Origin: Azospirillum sp. TSH58
GTDB taxonomy: Bacteria; Pseudomonadota; Alphaproteobacteria; Azospirillales; Azospirillaceae
Assembly: GCF_003119115.1 (NCBI RefSeq)
Contig: NZ_CP022364.1
Location: 1,750,001-1,814,000, forward strand
Length of the DNA: 64,000 nt
Reading direction: 5' to 3'
Shown here: positions 39,912 through 47,167 of the stretch, piece after piece
Position numbering within the stretch: position 1 is the stretch's first letter
How the letters are laid out: each line of letters opens with the position of its first letter
The notes under the pieces: model-generated
Database searches by the model: none
What the model was told of the DNA's origin: nothing
Seen by the model: only the letters and a program-made list of their open reading frames with translations
Made by a program: the position numbers and the translations under genes

Positions 39912-40244
39912 ATGCCCTACGTCGTGACGGAAGACTGCATCAAGTGCAAGTACACCGATTGCGTCGAGGTCTGCCCCGTGGACTGTTTCTACGAGGGCGA
40001 GAACATGCTGGTCATCCACCCGGATGAATGCATCGACTGCGGCGTGTGCGAGCCGGAATGCCCGGCCGAGGCCATCGTGCCGGACACCGACGGCCGCGCG
40101 GAGAAGTGGATGGAGCTGAACCGCGACTACGCGGCGCAGTGGCCCAACCTGACCCGCAAGAAGGACGCGCTGCCCGACGCCGACGCCATGAAGGGCGTGG
40201 ACGGCAAGTTCGACAAGTTCTTCTCCCCGAAGGCCGGCGGCTGA
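39912..40244 (+). CDS. fdxA: Seven-iron ferredoxin FdxA
   Basis: A 110-residue ferredoxin of the Azotobacter FdI type. Cysteines 9, 17 and 50 fit the [3Fe-4S] cluster and cysteines 21, 40, 43 and 46 fit the [4Fe-4S] cluster. The C-terminal half carries the family segment [18 protein letters not shown]. It carries electrons at low potential in the cytoplasm. The ATG at 39912 follows GGAG by 9 bases. A hairpin follows the stop codon and carD comes next. Confidence 0.95.
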
Positions 40245-40563: not shown

Positions 40564-41064
40564 ATGTCGAACAAGCTTGACTTCGAGGCCGGTGACTTCG
40601 TCGTCTACCCGGCCCATGGCGTCGGTCGGGTCGAGGGAATCGAGACCCACAGCATCGCTGGCATGGATGTTCAGCTCTACGCGATCACGTTCGAAAAAGA
40701 GCGCATGACGCTCAAGGTTCCGGTCGGCAAGGCCAAGGCCGCCGGCCTGCGCCGCCTCAGCACGAAGGACCGCATCAAGGTCGCCCTGGAGACGCTGCAG
40801 GGCCGCTCGCGCGTCCGCCGCACGATGTGGAGCCGCCGCGCCCAGGAGTATGAGGCCAAGATCAACTCGGGCGACCCGGTGGCCATCGCGGAGGTCGTGC
40901 GCGACCTGTACCGCGGCGCCGACCAGTCCGACCAGTCCTACAGCGAGCGCCAGATCTATCAGGCCGCCCTGGAGCGTCTGGCCCGCGAGCTGGCCGCCGT
41001 CGAGAAGATCGACGAGACCAAGGCCACCGAGCGGCTGGAGCTGGTCCTCAAGAAGGCCGCCTGA
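40564..41064 (+). CDS. carD: CarD/CdnL-family RNA polymerase-binding regulator
   Basis: A 166-residue protein with an N-terminal RNA polymerase interaction domain (FEAGDFVVYPAHGVGRVEGIE, residues 7-27, Tudor-like) and a C-terminal helical DNA-binding domain (RRTMWSRRAQEYEAKINSGDP, VRDLYR). CarD/CdnL stabilises open promoter complexes, notably at ribosomal RNA and growth promoters in alphaproteobacteria. It has a strong promoter of its own. The ribosome site (GTGAGAG) is moderate. Confidence 0.94.
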   Translation: MSNKLDFEAGDFVVYPAHGVGRVEGIETHSIAGMDVQLYAITFEKERMTLKVPVGKAKAAGLRRLSTKDRIKVALETLQGRSRVRRTMWSRRAQEYEAKINSGDPVAIAEVVRDLYRGADQSDQSYSERQIYQAALERLARELAAVEKIDETKATERLELVLKKAA

Positions 41065-41247
41065 TCCCGGTTCGGCGTCCTTTCCCACGGCGGGGACGGG
41101 AACCGGTTCCAGAATGTGATGTTGACGATGAAGGCGCGGCGCTTTGGCCGCGCCTTTGTCTTAAGTTTTCGTCTTTCGCCGGGCCTGCGCGGCGCCTACA
41201 CTCCCGCCCCCGGCCTTCGCGTGGCCGGTCCGTGACCGCTGGATGGG

Positions 41248-42078
41248 GTGAGCGTCTCCGGCATGTCTGAAGCGCAGAAATTCATCGATCTCCGGAACCC
41301 GCGGCGCATCTGGGCCGTCGGCTCGATCCACGCGCAGACGGACCATCTCCACGCCGTGCACGAGGTGATCGCGGCGCGCTTCCTGCCCGGCGACCGGCTC
41401 GTCTATCTCGGCAACATGGTCGGCTGGGGCGAGCGGGTGCTGGAGACGGTGGACGCCCTGCTGGCCTTCCGCACCTGGCTGCTGAGCTGGCGGGGCATGG
41501 AGGCCGGCGACATCGTCTATCTGCGCGGCGCGCAGGAGGAGATGTGGCACAAGCTGCTCCAGCTCCAGTTCGCGCCCGATCCGCAGCAGGTGCTCGACTG
41601 GATGACCCGCCATGGCGCGGGGGCCACGCTGGCCGCCTATGGCGGCACGGTGGAGCAGGGCATGGCGGCGGCCCGCGGCGGCACCATGACGCTCGGCCGC
41701 TGGACCCAGGGGCTGCGTCAGGCGATGCACGCGCATCCCGGTCACGAAAATGTGTTCAACACCCTGCGCCGCGCCGCCTACTGCACCGGCCCGGAGCAGG
41801 GGCAGGGCGGCGTGCTGCTGGTCAGCGCCGGCGTGGACATCCGCCGCCCGCTCAACCACCAGGGCGACGCCTTCTGGTGGGGGGCGCCCGGTTTCGCCCA
41901 GATGTCAGAGCCTTACGGCGGTTTTGCCCGCGTCGTGCGGGGCTACGACCCGGCCCGCAAGGGCGTCGCCGTAACCGACCGCGTGGCCACTCTCGATGGC
42001 AATTGCGGGTTGGGTGGGCACCTCGTCTGTGGATGCCTGTCGCCTTCGGGTGAGATCCTGGACCTGTTCCAGGTCTGA
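41248..42078 (+). CDS. Metallophosphatase-like protein with degenerate metal-binding motifs
   Basis: A 276-residue protein with the layout of PP1-type serine/threonine phosphatases, but the motifs have changed: GDxHG reads GSIHAQ (residues 25-30), GDxVDRG reads GNMVGWG (55-61), RGNHE reads RGAQEE (93-98) and VHAGVDP reads VSAGVDI (near 194). One His and one Asn of the usual ligands remain. It is probably inactive as a phosphatase or has a different activity. The start could be GTG 41248 (GGA upstream) or ATG 41263. It lies between carD and rpoH on the same strand. Confidence 0.75.
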   Translation: MSVSGMSEAQKFIDLRNPRRIWAVGSIHAQTDHLHAVHEVIAARFLPGDRLVYLGNMVGWGERVLETVDALLAFRTWLLSWRGMEAGDIVYLRGAQEEMWHKLLQLQFAPDPQQVLDWMTRHGAGATLAAYGGTVEQGMAAARGGTMTLGRWTQGLRQAMHAHPGHENVFNTLRRAAYCTGPEQGQGGVLLVSAGVDIRRPLNHQGDAFWWGAPGFAQMSEPYGGFARVVRGYDPARKGVAVTDRVATLDGNCGLGGHLVCGCLSPSGEILDLFQV

Positions 42079-42351: not shown

Positions 42352-43254
42352 ATGGCTTACATCGACGATCCCGAGACTCAGCGCGCGAATCTGAGTTTCA
42401 TCAAGGCCTCCATGCGTGAGCCTCTGCTGACGCGCGACCACGAATTCGATCTGGCCCGCAAATGGCGCGAGGGCGGCGACGAACGGGCCCTTCACGAGCT
42501 GGTCCGCGCCTACACCCGGCTGGTGGTGGCGACCGCCGCGCGCTTCCGCAACTACGGCCTCCCCATGGGCGACCTCGTGCAGGAAGGCAATGTCGGGCTG
42601 ATGCAGGCGGCCAGCCGGTTCGAGCCGGACCGCGAGGTGCGCTTTTCCACCTACGCGGCCTGGTGGATCCGCTCGGCCATGCAGGACTACATCCTGCGCA
42701 ACTGGTCTATCGTCCGCACCGGCACCACCGCCGCGCAGAAGTCGCTGTTCTTCAACCTGCGCCGCCTGCGCGCCCGCATCGAAAGCCTCAACCAGGGCGG
42801 CACCGGTTCCGGCAACAGCCTGACCAAGGAAGGGCGGGAGTGGATCGCCGGCGAACTCCAGGTCGACGTGACCGAGGTGGAGGCGATGGAGATGCGCCTG
42901 TCCGCCTCCGACCAGTCGCTGAACTCCCCGGTCGCCGACGGCTCCGACGAGGACTGGCAGGACTTTCTGGCCGACCAGCGCCCCTCGCCGGAGGAGGTGG
43001 TGATCGGCATGCGCGACAGCCGCACCCGCTCGCAATGGCTGGCCGAGGCGCTGGGCGAACTCAGCCCGCGCGAACGCACGATCATCCAGGAGCGCCGCCT
43101 GCGCGAGGAGGGCGCCACCCTGGAGGAGCTGGGCCGCGAGCTGGGGGTGAGCAAGGAGCGGGTGCGCCAGCTCGAACACCGCGCCCTGCTGAAGCTGCGC
43201 CAGTCGATGCTGAAGCGGGTGGAGGGGTTCGGGGATCTGCTGGCGGACGCGTAG
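42352..43254 (+). CDS. rpoH: Heat-shock sigma factor RpoH (sigma-32)
   Basis: A 300-residue group-3 sigma factor. Region 2 has DLVQEGNVGLMQAASRF and RFSTYAAWWIRSAMQDYI; the RpoH box is QKSLFFNLRRLRARI (about residues 129-143); region 4 ends with TLEELGRELGVSKERVRQLEHRAL. It directs RNA polymerase to heat-shock promoters such as that of htpG. ATG 42352 follows AAGGAAGGGA. The 273-base region before it contains no clear gene. The stop codon abuts copy 5 of the palindromic repeat. Confidence 0.96.
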   Translation: MAYIDDPETQRANLSFIKASMREPLLTRDHEFDLARKWREGGDERALHELVRAYTRLVVATAARFRNYGLPMGDLVQEGNVGLMQAASRFEPDREVRFSTYAAWWIRSAMQDYILRNWSIVRTGTTAAQKSLFFNLRRLRARIESLNQGGTGSGNSLTKEGREWIAGELQVDVTEVEAMEMRLSASDQSLNSPVADGSDEDWQDFLADQRPSPEEVVIGMRDSRTRSQWLAEALGELSPRERTIIQERRLREEGATLEELGRELGVSKERVRQLEHRALLKLRQSMLKRVEGFGDLLADA

Positions 43255-43377: not shown

Positions 43378-45360
43378 CTACGCCTTCTCTTCCTCCCGAA
43401 CCGCTCCGGCGCCATCCCCTCCGCCTTTCTCTCCCTCGCCGTCCAGGGTGACCCGCCACACCTCGGTCGTGCCGGTGCGGCCGCGGAGCGTGCGGTCGCC
43501 GACGCAGTCCAGCGGAGCGGCGCCGTCGCCCTGGAAGGCGGTGGCGGCGCTGGACAGGACGATGACCTCCTCGTCCCCCTGCAGGGCGGAGGCCAGCTCC
43601 TCGATGCGGGCGGCGACGTTCACCGTGTCGCCGACGATGGTGTAGTTGATCCGGCTCTCGGACCCGATGTTGCCCACCACGACCGGCCCGGAATGCAGGC
43701 CGATCCGCACGCGGATCGGCGGAAGCCCCTCCGCCGCGCGGCGGCGGTTGCCCGCGCGCACGGCGCGGGTGATGGCGTGGGCGGCGCGCAGCGCGCGGGC
43801 GGCGTGGTCCGGCTGCTCCTCCGGCGCGCCCCAGAAGGCCATGATGGCGTCGCCGATGAACTTGTCCACCGTGCCGCCCTCCGCCTCGATGCAGTTGGCG
43901 AGCAGGGTGAAATGCTCGTTCAACAGGGCGGCGGTGTCGGCGGCCCCCATATGCTCGGCCATGCGGGAGAAGCCGCGGATGTCGGTGAACATCACCGTCA
44001 CCTCCCGCTCCTCCGACTGGAAGCTGGTCAGGCCGCCGCGGCGGTGCATCAGCCGCAGCACCAGCGCCTTGGGCACATAGGTCTCGAACCAGCGCAGCCC
44101 GGCGACCATGGCGTTGAAGGCGCTGTTGGCGCGGGCCAGCTCGCGCAGGCGCGAATCGGGCAGCTCGGAAATATCGCGGAACTCGAAGGTCCGGACACGG
44201 TCGGCGGCCTCGGCCAGACGGGCCACCTGGGTGCTGATGCGCCGTCCGACGATCAGCGCCACCGCCACCGAGATCAGCAGGATGCCCAGCCCGGCGAGGC
44301 CGGTGGTGTAGAGGCGGCGGACCTCCGCGCTGGCCTCGTTGGCGCGGAAGCTGATGCCGATGGTCCAGTCCTGCTGGCCGTAGCCGGCCATGCTGCGCAT
44401 CAGGAACAGGTAATCCTCGTCCAGCACGTTGACGATCCGGCCCTCCACCCGCTTCTTCAGGGCGTCCACCGGCTGGCCGGTCTGCCACAGCGCCGCCAGC
44501 GCCGGATCGGCCACCTGGTCGATGCGCGGCAGGGGCGGGCCGTCGGTCTTGGCGGAGAAGTCGAACTTCATGCCGGCCAGCGACGGGTGGGCCAGCACAT
44601 GCTGCCGGTCGAACAGGACGAAGGCGTTCAGCCCCTGCTCCACATAGAGCGTGGACAGGAAGCGCGACAGGTCGCCCAGCGACACGCCGACGACCACCTG
44701 CCCCAGATAGACGCCGTTGCGCCGCACCGGCTGGAACAGGGTGACGAAGCTGGTCCCCGCCTCCTTCGACCACAGGGGGTCGGCCCAGACGGCGGTGGTG
44801 CGGTCGGCGCCGTTGCGCAGTTCGGGCGCCAGCTCCGGCTCGTGGTGCAGGTCTTCCCGCCCGATGTGGAGCTGGTTGCCCAGGCGGTCGGCGCGCAGGC
44901 CGGTGCGGTCGGGGTGGAAGAAGGCGATGCCCGTGACGTCCGGCGCCCCGGCCAGCGCGCCGCGCAGCGTGTCCTGGAGCGAGCGCGAATCGGCGGGGTC
45001 CAGCTCCCCCCGCTCCATCAGTCCGGCCACGAAACGGGCCATGTCCCGCGCGGGGTTGAGCTGGTTGCGGATGCGCACCTCCACCCCCGACAAGGCGAGG
45101 TCGGCGCGGTCGTTCAACAGGGTGAAGGTGTTCCGGCTGGCGCTGACGAGGCCGAGCACCAGCACGCTCGCCACCGCCAGCAGCATCAGCGACCCGAAGC
45201 CCGCCACCAGCACCGCCGCGATGGGCAGGCGCAGGCGCGGACGGCCCAGCGCGGGCGGGCGCGTCCGGCGCGGACCACCCTTCTTGCGCACGGCCTCCTT
45301 CAGTCCGGAGACGCGCAAGCCGGTTCGCGGAAAACGCCGTTTGGTGGGGTGGTCAGCCAT
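43378..45360 (-). CDS. Membrane-bound adenylate/guanylate cyclase (class III)
   Basis: A 660-residue protein: short basic cytoplasmic start, a membrane segment (about 47-70), a large periplasmic sensor region (to about 310, Cache-like), a second membrane segment (about 320-340), a HAMP-like linker and a C-terminal cyclase domain. The first metal Asp is in VMFTDIRGFSRM, the second in KFIGDAIMAFWGAP, and NYTIVGDTVNVAARI is the transition-state region. The lysine in KFIGD favours ATP as substrate. The ATG at 45360 follows a weak ribosome site; a longer start at 45429 is less likely. Confidence 0.9.
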   Translation of the reverse strand: MADHPTKRRFPRTGLRVSGLKEAVRKKGGPRRTRPPALGRPRLRLPIAAVLVAGFGSLMLLAVASVLVLGLVSASRNTFTLLNDRADLALSGVEVRIRNQLNPARDMARFVAGLMERGELDPADSRSLQDTLRGALAGAPDVTGIAFFHPDRTGLRADRLGNQLHIGREDLHHEPELAPELRNGADRTTAVWADPLWSKEAGTSFVTLFQPVRRNGVYLGQVVVGVSLGDLSRFLSTLYVEQGLNAFVLFDRQHVLAHPSLAGMKFDFSAKTDGPPLPRIDQVADPALAALWQTGQPVDALKKRVEGRIVNVLDEDYLFLMRSMAGYGQQDWTIGISFRANEASAEVRRLYTTGLAGLGILLISVAVALIVGRRISTQVARLAEAADRVRTFEFRDISELPDSRLRELARANSAFNAMVAGLRWFETYVPKALVLRLMHRRGGLTSFQSEEREVTVMFTDIRGFSRMAEHMGAADTAALLNEHFTLLANCIEAEGGTVDKFIGDAIMAFWGAPEEQPDHAARALRAAHAITRAVRAGNRRRAAEGLPPIRVRIGLHSGPVVVGNIGSESRINYTIVGDTVNVAARIEELASALQGDEEVIVLSSAATAFQGDGAAPLDCVGDRTLRGRTGTTEVWRVTLDGEGEKGGGDGAGAVREEEKA

Positions 45361-45451
45361 GGCGCGGAGCCTACAGGACGCACGCGGCCATCGGCAATCG
45401 GCCATCGCGCCGCGTCCTGTAACGGTCACCCGCTCACCGTTCGGGACTTTG

Positions 45452-46903
45452 TCAGCCGGTGATGATCTTCACCGGACGTCCGGGCTGGATCGGTGTGCCC
45501 GGCGGCAGATCGTTGATGATCCGGAACAACTCCTCCGCGTAGGGCTCCCGCGGCATCTGGCGGACGAAGCTCTCCACGCTGTCGCCGGGGCGGGCGGTCT
45601 GCACGCGGATGCGCCTGGGCTGGTAGGAGGCGGCCTCCTGTTGGGTCAGCCGGCGGAAGCTGATGGCGGTCTGGCGGAAGTCGGAGTCGAAGCGCGACAG
45701 CGCGCCGCCGGGGGCCAGGAAGGTGAAGCGGTAGAGCGTGCCGGAGTCGGCGCGGATGGCGACCAGCCGCACGTCCACCGCCCCGGCGTCGGTCTTGCCC
45801 TGGGTCAGCGCGGTGGCCGCCGGCATGCCGTTGACGGTGAAGGATTGCAGGTCCCGCAACGGCGCCCCCTGCGCCCAGGTGCCGCTCAGATAGGCGGCGG
45901 GGTCGCGCACGCCCGGCGCCTTGCCGCCGTCGAAGACGGCCCCATCAAAAACAAGGGCGCCGCCGTTGGGACCCTTGGCGATCACCTGCTCCGCCCCGTT
46001 GAGCAGGCTGAAGCCCTGCGGCACGTCGAAGGCGATGCCCAGCTGCGGGTGGGCGAAGGTCCGGCCGCGGACGAAGCCGTTCTCCGGGCTGTCGCCGTAG
46101 ATCACCCCGTCCATCGCCGCCATGTAGGGGGCGACGGGCCGCGCCCCGCGGGGCAGCTCGCGGGCGATGGCCGCCGCCTCGTCGACGCGCGACGCGGTCT
46201 GCGGGTGGGTGGCGAAGAAGTCGAAGCCGCCCTCTCCCGCACCCTTGCCGGAGCGCAGGCCGGTATACTGGGTGTCGCGGCGCATGGTCTCCAGGAAGGT
46301 CGCCATGGCGAAGGGGTCGTATCCGGCGCGGTGCAGATACTCGATGCCCAGCCGGTCGGCCTCCGTCTCCTGGCCGCGGGAGTAGCGGGCGAGCAGGGCG
46401 GTGCCGCCGATGTTGGCGATCTGCGCCAGCTCCGGGCTGCCCAGCACGAGGCCGATCCCGGCGGCGAGCAGCCCGGCGATGGTCTGGTTGGTCTGCCGCT
46501 CCTGGCCATGGTGGGCGATGACGTGGCCGATCTCGTGCCCCAGCACGCTCGCCACCTCCGCCTCGTCCTTGGCGAGCGCCAGCAGGCCGCGGGTGATGTA
46601 GACGTAGCCGCCGGGCAGGGCGAAGGCGTTGACCACGTCGCTGTCCAGCACGGTGAAGGTCCAGGGGCCGGAGCGGTCGGTCTGGGCGGCCAGCCGGTTG
46701 CCGATGCCGGTGATGTAGGCCTGCAGCCGCTGGTCGGGGTAGGCCCCGCCATACTGGGCGAGGATCTTGGGATGCTCCTGCGCGCCGATCGACTCCTCGC
46801 TGCCGCCGAGGAGCTGGGCGCTGGCCGGGGCACAGGCCGAAGTGAGCAGCAGGACCGCCAGCGCCGCGGCGGCGATCCGGCGCAGCGGGGATGATGACTG
46901 CAT
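45452..46903 (-). CDS. M48-family metalloprotease lipoprotein
   Basis: A 483-residue protein with a lipoprotein signal (AAAALAVLLLTSAC, lipobox LTSAC). The zinc site is LGHEIGHVIAHH with the third ligand in QETEADRLGIEYL, as in BepA/YfgC and LoiP. The C-terminal 60 residues resemble a LysM-like region (RPGDSVESFVRQM, PIQPGRPVKII). It probably acts at the inner face of the outer membrane in protein quality control. ATG 46903 follows GAGGGG; this ribosome site lies at the edge of a palindromic repeat. Confidence 0.9.
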   Translation of the reverse strand: MQSSSPLRRIAAAALAVLLLTSACAPASAQLLGGSEESIGAQEHPKILAQYGGAYPDQRLQAYITGIGNRLAAQTDRSGPWTFTVLDSDVVNAFALPGGYVYITRGLLALAKDEAEVASVLGHEIGHVIAHHGQERQTNQTIAGLLAAGIGLVLGSPELAQIANIGGTALLARYSRGQETEADRLGIEYLHRAGYDPFAMATFLETMRRDTQYTGLRSGKGAGEGGFDFFATHPQTASRVDEAAAIARELPRGARPVAPYMAAMDGVIYGDSPENGFVRGRTFAHPQLGIAFDVPQGFSLLNGAEQVIAKGPNGGALVFDGAVFDGGKAPGVRDPAAYLSGTWAQGAPLRDLQSFTVNGMPAATALTQGKTDAGAVDVRLVAIRADSGTLYRFTFLAPGGALSRFDSDFRQTAISFRRLTQQEAASYQPRRIRVQTARPGDSVESFVRQMPREPYAEELFRIINDLPPGTPIQPGRPVKIITG

Positions 46904-46910
46904 TCGCGAT

Positions 46911-47028
46911 CCCCTCTCCCCCCTGGGGAGAGGGTCAGGGTGAGGGGCGCGCGCTTGTGCCGGACCTCCCGCCACGCGCACCCCCCTCACCGGCCCTCCG
47001 GGCCACCCTCTCCCCAGGGGGAAGAGGA
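46911..47028. repeat. Palindromic intergenic repeat of a second type
   Basis: CCCCTCTCCCCCCTGGGGAGAGGG-type sequence followed by TCAGGGTGAGGGG on the left is mirrored by CCCCCTCACCGGCCCTCCGGGCCACCCTCTCCCCAGGGGG on the right. The core differs from copies 1-5 but the overall plan (a stem of two blocks with a variable centre) is the same. It lies 7 bases before the M48 protease start codon on the minus strand. Confidence 0.75.
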
Positions 47029-47167
47029 TTGGATCGGCCGGTTGCCTTGGCGGAGACAGGGAGGACGGCTTGCGTTCGGGCGTCGGTTCGGGCGTCATGA
47101 GTCGTCATATCGGAAGGGGGCTCGCAGAGATCAAACTCCCCATCCGCTCCGCCTGTTCCACCGCTCC

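Follow-up and report, generated by a model that had tools for sequence, protein, structure and literature searches.

Between the genes for a CarD-type regulator and an RpoH-type sigma factor, Azospirillum sp. TSH58 carries an open frame whose product resembles a PP1-type metallophosphatase with rewritten metal-binding motifs. This raises the question of whether the protein is decaying, has been turned to a different chemistry, or has been kept as something other than an enzyme. Pseudoenzymes are discussed mostly in eukaryotes, and no paper on the Azospirillum gene was recognized in the open-licence literature. The window analyzed here is the whole 64,000-nucleotide stretch of contig NZ_CP022364.1 in which the gene lies.

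The Gene and Its Surroundings

The features around the gene are as follows.

39912..40244, + strand: fdxA-type ferredoxin, in the conserved block (Pfam Fer4 and DUF3470)
40564..41064, + strand: carD, CdnL-type RNA polymerase-binding regulator, upstream of the gene (Pfam CarD_C 2.3e-25, CarD_TRCF_RID 2.4e-15)
41127..41160, + strand: terminator-like hairpin downstream of carD and ahead of the gene (stem of 14 pairs, T-rich tail; consensus scan)
41263..42078, + strand: probable pseudo-metallophosphatase gene, 271 aa plus stop (fold model, structure matches, family alignment)
42352..43254, + strand: RpoH-type sigma factor, downstream of the gene (Pfam Sigma70 regions 2, 3, and 4)

The frame is open from 41248 to 42078 on the + strand, and its stop codon occupies 42076-42078. 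The first-pass annotation had begun the gene at 41248, where a GTG could serve as the start codon; the open frame stands, and the ATG at 41263 is preferred as the start because its Met is the first residue of the family alignment. The corresponding locus of A. brasilense BR 11650 encodes a protein with 100% identity (rounded) to the window protein. The placement of the gene between carD and rpoH was read correctly, as the neighbors are CarD and a sigma-70-type factor by Pfam; we take rpoH to be the usual name for the latter. The hairpin scan found two hairpins, the shorter of them nested in 41127..41160, where shuffled sequences gave a mean of 0.6 (sd 0.9), and a consensus scan detected no promoter-like site between carD and the gene. 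The hairpin suggests that the two genes would be on separate transcripts in the window. carD and the family gene share a reading frame at 64 of 164 same-strand loci (39%, with many near-copies), where one third is expected.

Further downstream lies a large frame at 43378-45429 (- strand), which we take to resemble a membrane-bound adenylate/guanylate cyclase. The frame after it, at 45452-47098 (- strand), contains an HExxH motif (HEIGH) and may encode an M48 peptidase. An M48 peptidase frame (L086:3799-5634, - strand) is found just downstream of the family gene in L086, so the shared neighborhood may be wider.

Fold of the Encoded Protein

Sequence models place the protein poorly. A Pfam scan of the window protein gave no family at E ≤ 1, Metallophos (PF00149) included, and when 55 family members were scanned at E ≤ 0.1, PF00149 matched three (best E 0.0011) and PF14582 matched ten (best E 0.0029). 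The NCBIfam scan of the window protein gave two protein phosphatase models at E ≤ 1, with E about 0.02 and far below cut-off; the ApaH equivalog model was not among them. No NCBIfam model was matched at E ≤ 0.001 by the window protein or by two other members.

Structure prediction gave a firmer answer. The alignment used for modelling comprised the window protein and 54 of the 72 loci from the contig scan (55 members), and the AlphaFold2 model of the window protein was confident (pLDDT 94.5, pTM 0.93). Compared with solved structures, the model matched 2qjc (Z 20.9 over 195 residues, rmsd 2.5), Rhizobiales-like phosphatase 2 (5vjv, Z 20.8), the PnkP phosphatase domain (4j6o, Z 20.7), lambda phosphatase (1g5b, Z 18.9), and ApaH (9ojd, Z 17.5). 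These PPP/ApaH-type matches span nearly the whole protein. The best Foldseek E value was 5.7e-10, TM-scores were moderate at about 0.5-0.6, and the calcineurin-like phosphoesterase fold was recognized from the model and the structure matches (TM-score 0.55 at E 5.7e-10). The profile of the 55 members also picks up 2qjc by sequence (E 1.2e-6). By its predicted structure, the window protein is a PPP/ApaH-type metallophosphatase in fold. The Foldseek and Z-score matches, together with the profile match to 2qjc, rule out a chance resemblance of motifs. They also show that the motifs had been read in the right register, with the order and spacing of PP1-type markers.

Loss of Metal and Catalytic Residues

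Five motif positions of the active enzymes can be located in the frame.

41320..41334, + strand: GSIHA, residues 20-24, at the GDxHG position; metal Asp replaced by Ser, His retained
41410..41430, + strand: GNMVGWG, residues 50-56, at the GDxVDRG position; bridging Asp replaced by Asn, second Asp by Gly, Arg by Trp
41524..41541, + strand: RGAQEE, residues 88-93, at the RGNHE position; metal Asn and catalytic His replaced
41821..41838, + strand: VSAGVD, residues 187-192, at the VHAGVDP position; metal His replaced by Ser in the window protein
41938..41946, + strand: RGY, residues 226-228, at the position of the last metal His; His replaced by Tyr

The first four had been described in the first-pass annotation and are present in the sequence as read. 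The fifth, which bears the last metal His, is altered as well and goes beyond that description. Seven positions (D21, H23, D51, N90, H91, H188, and H228) were scored for retention of the metal-binding and catalytic residues. The window protein retains one of the seven, H23; it lacks the ligand set of active PPP/ApaH enzymes (Asp, His, Asp, Asn, His, His) and has Q91 where GNHE has its catalytic His.

The same positions were counted across the family in 159 distinct aligned sequences, obtained from 177 pooled loci after identical ones were dropped; 29 of the 159 belong to the genus of the window, and loci L001-L030 share organisms in part with those from L031 onward. The first metal Asp, D21, occurs in none of the 159 (one row is gapped at this position). 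The bridging Asp at position 51 is kept in three and replaced by Asn in 154. At position 54, the second Asp is never found and Gly is present in 158. Position 91 is Gln in 151 sequences and the catalytic His in one. These new residues are nearly fixed. Three other positions vary: the metal Asn, N90, remains in five sequences, position 188 is His in 62, Ser in 47, and Asn in 38, and position 228 is Tyr in 75, Phe in 59, and His in five. R226 is found in 152 sequences. Counted over the seven positions, 18 sequences retain no residue, 79 retain one, 57 two, three retain three, and two retain four, so that at most two are kept in 154 of 159 and no member keeps more than four. The earlier statement that most metal ligands are replaced is accurate with the word most, not all, since all 159 sequences have E92 of GNHE and 134 have H23.

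In active enzymes, the phosphate is gripped by the two metals and by Asn, Arg, and His side chains. These groups are mostly lost from the family, the Arg of GDxVDRG (R55) being present in 46 of 159 sequences. The remaining residues do not favor phosphoprotein binding, which had been suggested as a possible role.

Family Spread and Active-Type Relatives

Family loci were gathered by a contig scan with six query peptide patterns, two of them with changed motifs; the set leans toward changed motifs. A whole-genome profile search was free of peptide patterns, yet its profile was built from the pattern-scan loci. Of 387 alphaproteobacterial genomes, 145 carry the family by this search; they belong to 55 family-level groups, and there is a clear gap between the family (E 1.6e-54 or better) and the best other protein (7e-21). 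In a search of 397 genomes from the phylum, of which 34, all Alphaproteobacteria, were displayed, 14 match at E ≤ 1e-30, and these too are all Alphaproteobacteria.

The five best-scoring non-family relatives (L115-L119) retain all seven metal and catalytic residues and pass the Pfam Metallophos cut-off. Their NCBIfam matches, to the models for PnkP, PrpE, ApaH, and protein-serine/threonine phosphatase, fall short of the cut-off, and no single model stands out. A tree was built by quick search from these five proteins, the window, and 101 family loci (under 68% identity). Rooted on the five, it separates them from the family by a branch with SH-aLRT 100; 47 of its 104 inner branches are open. 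Orthologues with the normal GDxHG/GDxVDRG/GNHE motifs, which would speak against the reading of a lost metal site, were not found in the 387 alphaproteobacterial genomes, where the five best-scoring of the non-family phosphatases were examined. The replacements noted in the window protein recur in relatives, among the 159 distinct family sequences. From these distributions, the metal center appears to have been lost once, before the family spread, and the altered form then kept.

Three members depart from this pattern. D51, H23, and H188 occur together in L083 (Thalassobaculum fulvum), L085 (Rhodospirillaceae MAG M30B52), and L086 (strain BAL199), two of which also have H228; D21, N90, and H91 are absent from all three. 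In the tree, L083 with its D51 pairs with L071, which bears N51, and for this reason D51 is likelier a reversal than the ancestral state. Given how often H23 and H188 persist in the family, and the presence of all three residues in these proteins, a single bound metal could still be held by these few exceptions.

These observations bear on the alternative that the cleft is still catalytic, as a single-metal or metal-free enzyme working through residues such as Q91, E92, E93, H161, and R226. Several former catalytic-loop positions carry nearly invariant residues, and H23, E92, H161, Q200, and D245 are common to the family and its active-type relatives. The three exceptions with D51, H23, and H188 can be read in the same way, but the D51 on which they depend looks like a reversal. 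The absence of the first metal Asp and the scarcity of the catalytic His (one of 159), N90, and the last His (five of 159 each) also argue against retained chemistry, and we judge a re-tooled enzyme unlikely.

Selective Constraint

Decay of a duplicate gene would be another account of the missing residues. Most metal and catalytic residues are gone, and a stop codon interrupts the frame in one of the 145 genomes (G328). Against this, dN/dS was 0.05-0.15 in six comparisons with close relatives (proteins 96-99% identical), the replacements are nearly fixed, and the full-length fold is preserved. Two genomes as small as 1.2 and 1.6 Mb (G387 and G175) also keep the gene, which in them closely follows carD (L108, L109). 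The dN/dS values and the fixation of the replacements show that the gene is not decaying, and we give practically no credence to a pseudogene or to chance resemblance. Purifying selection is weaker than on the neighboring genes, for which four comparisons each gave dN/dS of 0 (carD) and 0.02-0.08 (rpoH).

Constraint is also seen at the former active site. In 119 representatives, the mean entropy of the former active-site loops is 1.12, against 1.92 elsewhere (permutation p 0.00015), which is weak evidence for a ligand because active-site loops are often conserved for their structural glycines. Five residues (W17, W147, G160, W205, and R226) reach at least 95% conservation in the same representatives and occur in none of the five active-type relatives. 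The idea of a kept, non-catalytic role, first put forward from the window alone, draws good computational support from the recurrence of the replacements in 159 sequences, from the low dN/dS, and from the conserved loops.

The fdxA-carD-rpoH Neighborhood

Genes around the family were surveyed at loci with enough flanking sequence. At 143 of 156 loci (116 of 127 outside the genus of the window), carD precedes the gene on the same strand by no more than 1 kb, and fdxA is found upstream at 100 of 118 (98 of 116 outside the genus). An RpoH-type sigma gene follows on the same strand at 68 of 149 loci, and at 42 of 120 outside the genus. At 13 of the 156 loci no carD turned up within this distance, two of them having it at 1.2-1.4 kb; L002 and L026 have no carD in 1.2-1.5 kb upstream, and the upstream genes of nine loci without carD nearby are varied. 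Apart from rpoH, no constant downstream gene was seen: among ten downstream frames, five were matched by Pfam, all differently, and five were unmatched.

Thirty chosen genomes that lack the family were inspected in the same way. fdxA is near carD in 24 of the 30, and an RpoH-type gene follows carD in ten. No phosphatase-like frame, such as that of an active phosphatase, was present at carD in these 30 genomes within the short 1.5 kb flanks searched. fdxA-carD-rpoH is thus an old, conserved alphaproteobacterial block, and in a large part of the class the gene stands behind carD within it. Since the order also occurs without the gene, the closeness of these genes may be a matter of inherited order. 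The location points to a single old origin in place and is not in itself proof of work with CarD or RpoH.

If the protein were a dedicated partner of CarD, it would bind CarD directly, for example to control its binding to RNA polymerase or its turnover. The frequency of carD within 1 kb upstream, also outside the genus, is what such a pairing predicts. The carD-to-family stretch was therefore read through as one chain in the window and 27 other loci (28 paired rows, 577 columns) and modelled with AlphaFold2. The resulting pTM of 0.57, with a low-confidence linker, is about the 0.5-0.55 estimated for a chain with no interface, and offers neither support nor disproof. The 24 family-negative genomes with fdxA and carD together and the 13 loci without carD within 1 kb (among them the two with carD at 1.2-1.4 kb) weigh against this role, which we regard as very doubtful.

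A separate observation concerns the end of CarD. The window CarD (40564-41064) ends in KKAA, and an AA tail is present in 128 of 146 CarD frames that accompany the family, versus 19 of 30 that do not; the rows are related. A CdnL tail ending in AA suffices for degradation in starvation in Caulobacter, according to the sections consulted of one study (PMC11034885). A carD neighbor of the present kind was not found in the passages on CdnL that were available from the literature.

The neighborhood also invites a sensor model, in which an inactive ApaH-like protein would sense Ap4A or a related nucleotide by binding but not cleaving it, and would signal to transcription control. The closest solved relatives include diadenosine tetraphosphatases (2qjc, 9t9n), the former active-site loops are conserved, and the neighbors are CarD and often an RpoH-type sigma factor. 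Ancestry from ApaH is unspecific, however, as the ApaH, PrpE, Ser/Thr phosphatase, and PnkP models are all below cut-off for L115-L119. We consider a nucleotide or alarmone sensor improbable, though slightly less doubtful than a dedicated CarD partner.

Discussion

The predicted fold, the loss of ligands, the conservation, and the gene neighborhood converge on one explanation. The gene probably encodes an old alphaproteobacterial pseudo-metallophosphatase, a non-enzyme that would act as a rigid binder through its former active-site face. It has the marks of a pseudophosphatase: a phosphatase fold, catalytic residues that are mostly absent, and conservation among orthologues. The protein is presumably not catalytic, judging from the residues it has lost, and binding through the former active-site face is suggested by motif positions and by analogy.

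We propose that, before the spread of the family, a phosphatase of the PPP/ApaH fold lost its catalytic histidine along with its two-metal center, and that the inactive protein would then have been retained as a non-enzyme. Its former active-site face may hold a partner protein or a small ligand by means of the newly fixed N51, G54, Q91, and R226 and the inherited E92. The mode of action would be that of a rigid binding protein, much as VPS29 employs an inactive phosphatase fold as a scaffold. The place of the gene between carD and rpoH is consistent with a role, perhaps, in growth-rate or stress control of transcription; a link to the function of CarD or RpoH themselves is a guess. The weaker constraint than on carD and rpoH, the block order shared with genomes that lack the family, and the terminator-like hairpin that separates the gene from carD in the window count against this explanation. 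A bolder proposal, that the dead active site binds a nucleotide alarmone or a partner from the transcription machinery and so adds a new layer of control at fdxA-carD-rpoH, has a minor chance of being correct.

If the pseudo-metallophosphatase reading holds, 55 family-level groups have kept a bacterial metallophosphatase fold without its metal center, in most cases close to an RNA polymerase regulator. This would make it a tractable gene for learning what dead phosphatases do in bacteria, and possibly an overlooked partner in CarD/RpoH control.

The family is best understood beside known systems. It resembles the PPP/ApaH-type enzymes (2qjc, ApaH, the PnkP phosphatase domain, and lambda phosphatase) in fold and in how the motif loops are ordered and spaced, and it shares G118, Y126, H161, Q200, W206, and D245 with the five active-type alphaproteobacterial relatives. 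Unlike these enzymes, it has other residues in place of the catalytic His and of most metal ligands. Pseudophosphatases as such are already known, among them those of the PPP family in kinetoplastids. Eukaryotic DNA polymerase B-subunits are inactive phosphoesterases that have lost the metal ligands and kept the fold as a structural subunit, and they are stable parts of known polymerase complexes. To our knowledge, the kinetoplastid pseudophosphatases have no gene neighborhood of the present kind. In the sections consulted of the study describing them (PMC2175518), they are, like the present family, PPP sequences retained with catalytic substitutions in lineage-specific groups; they differ in being eukaryotic and in falling into PP2A or kinetoplastid-specific PPP clusters. 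VPS29, as described in the excerpts consulted of PMC3101248, likewise keeps a metallophosphatase fold without phosphatase activity and uses it as a scaffold, a likeness drawn from that description and not from sequence or structure. It differs in being a eukaryotic retromer subunit with other partners.
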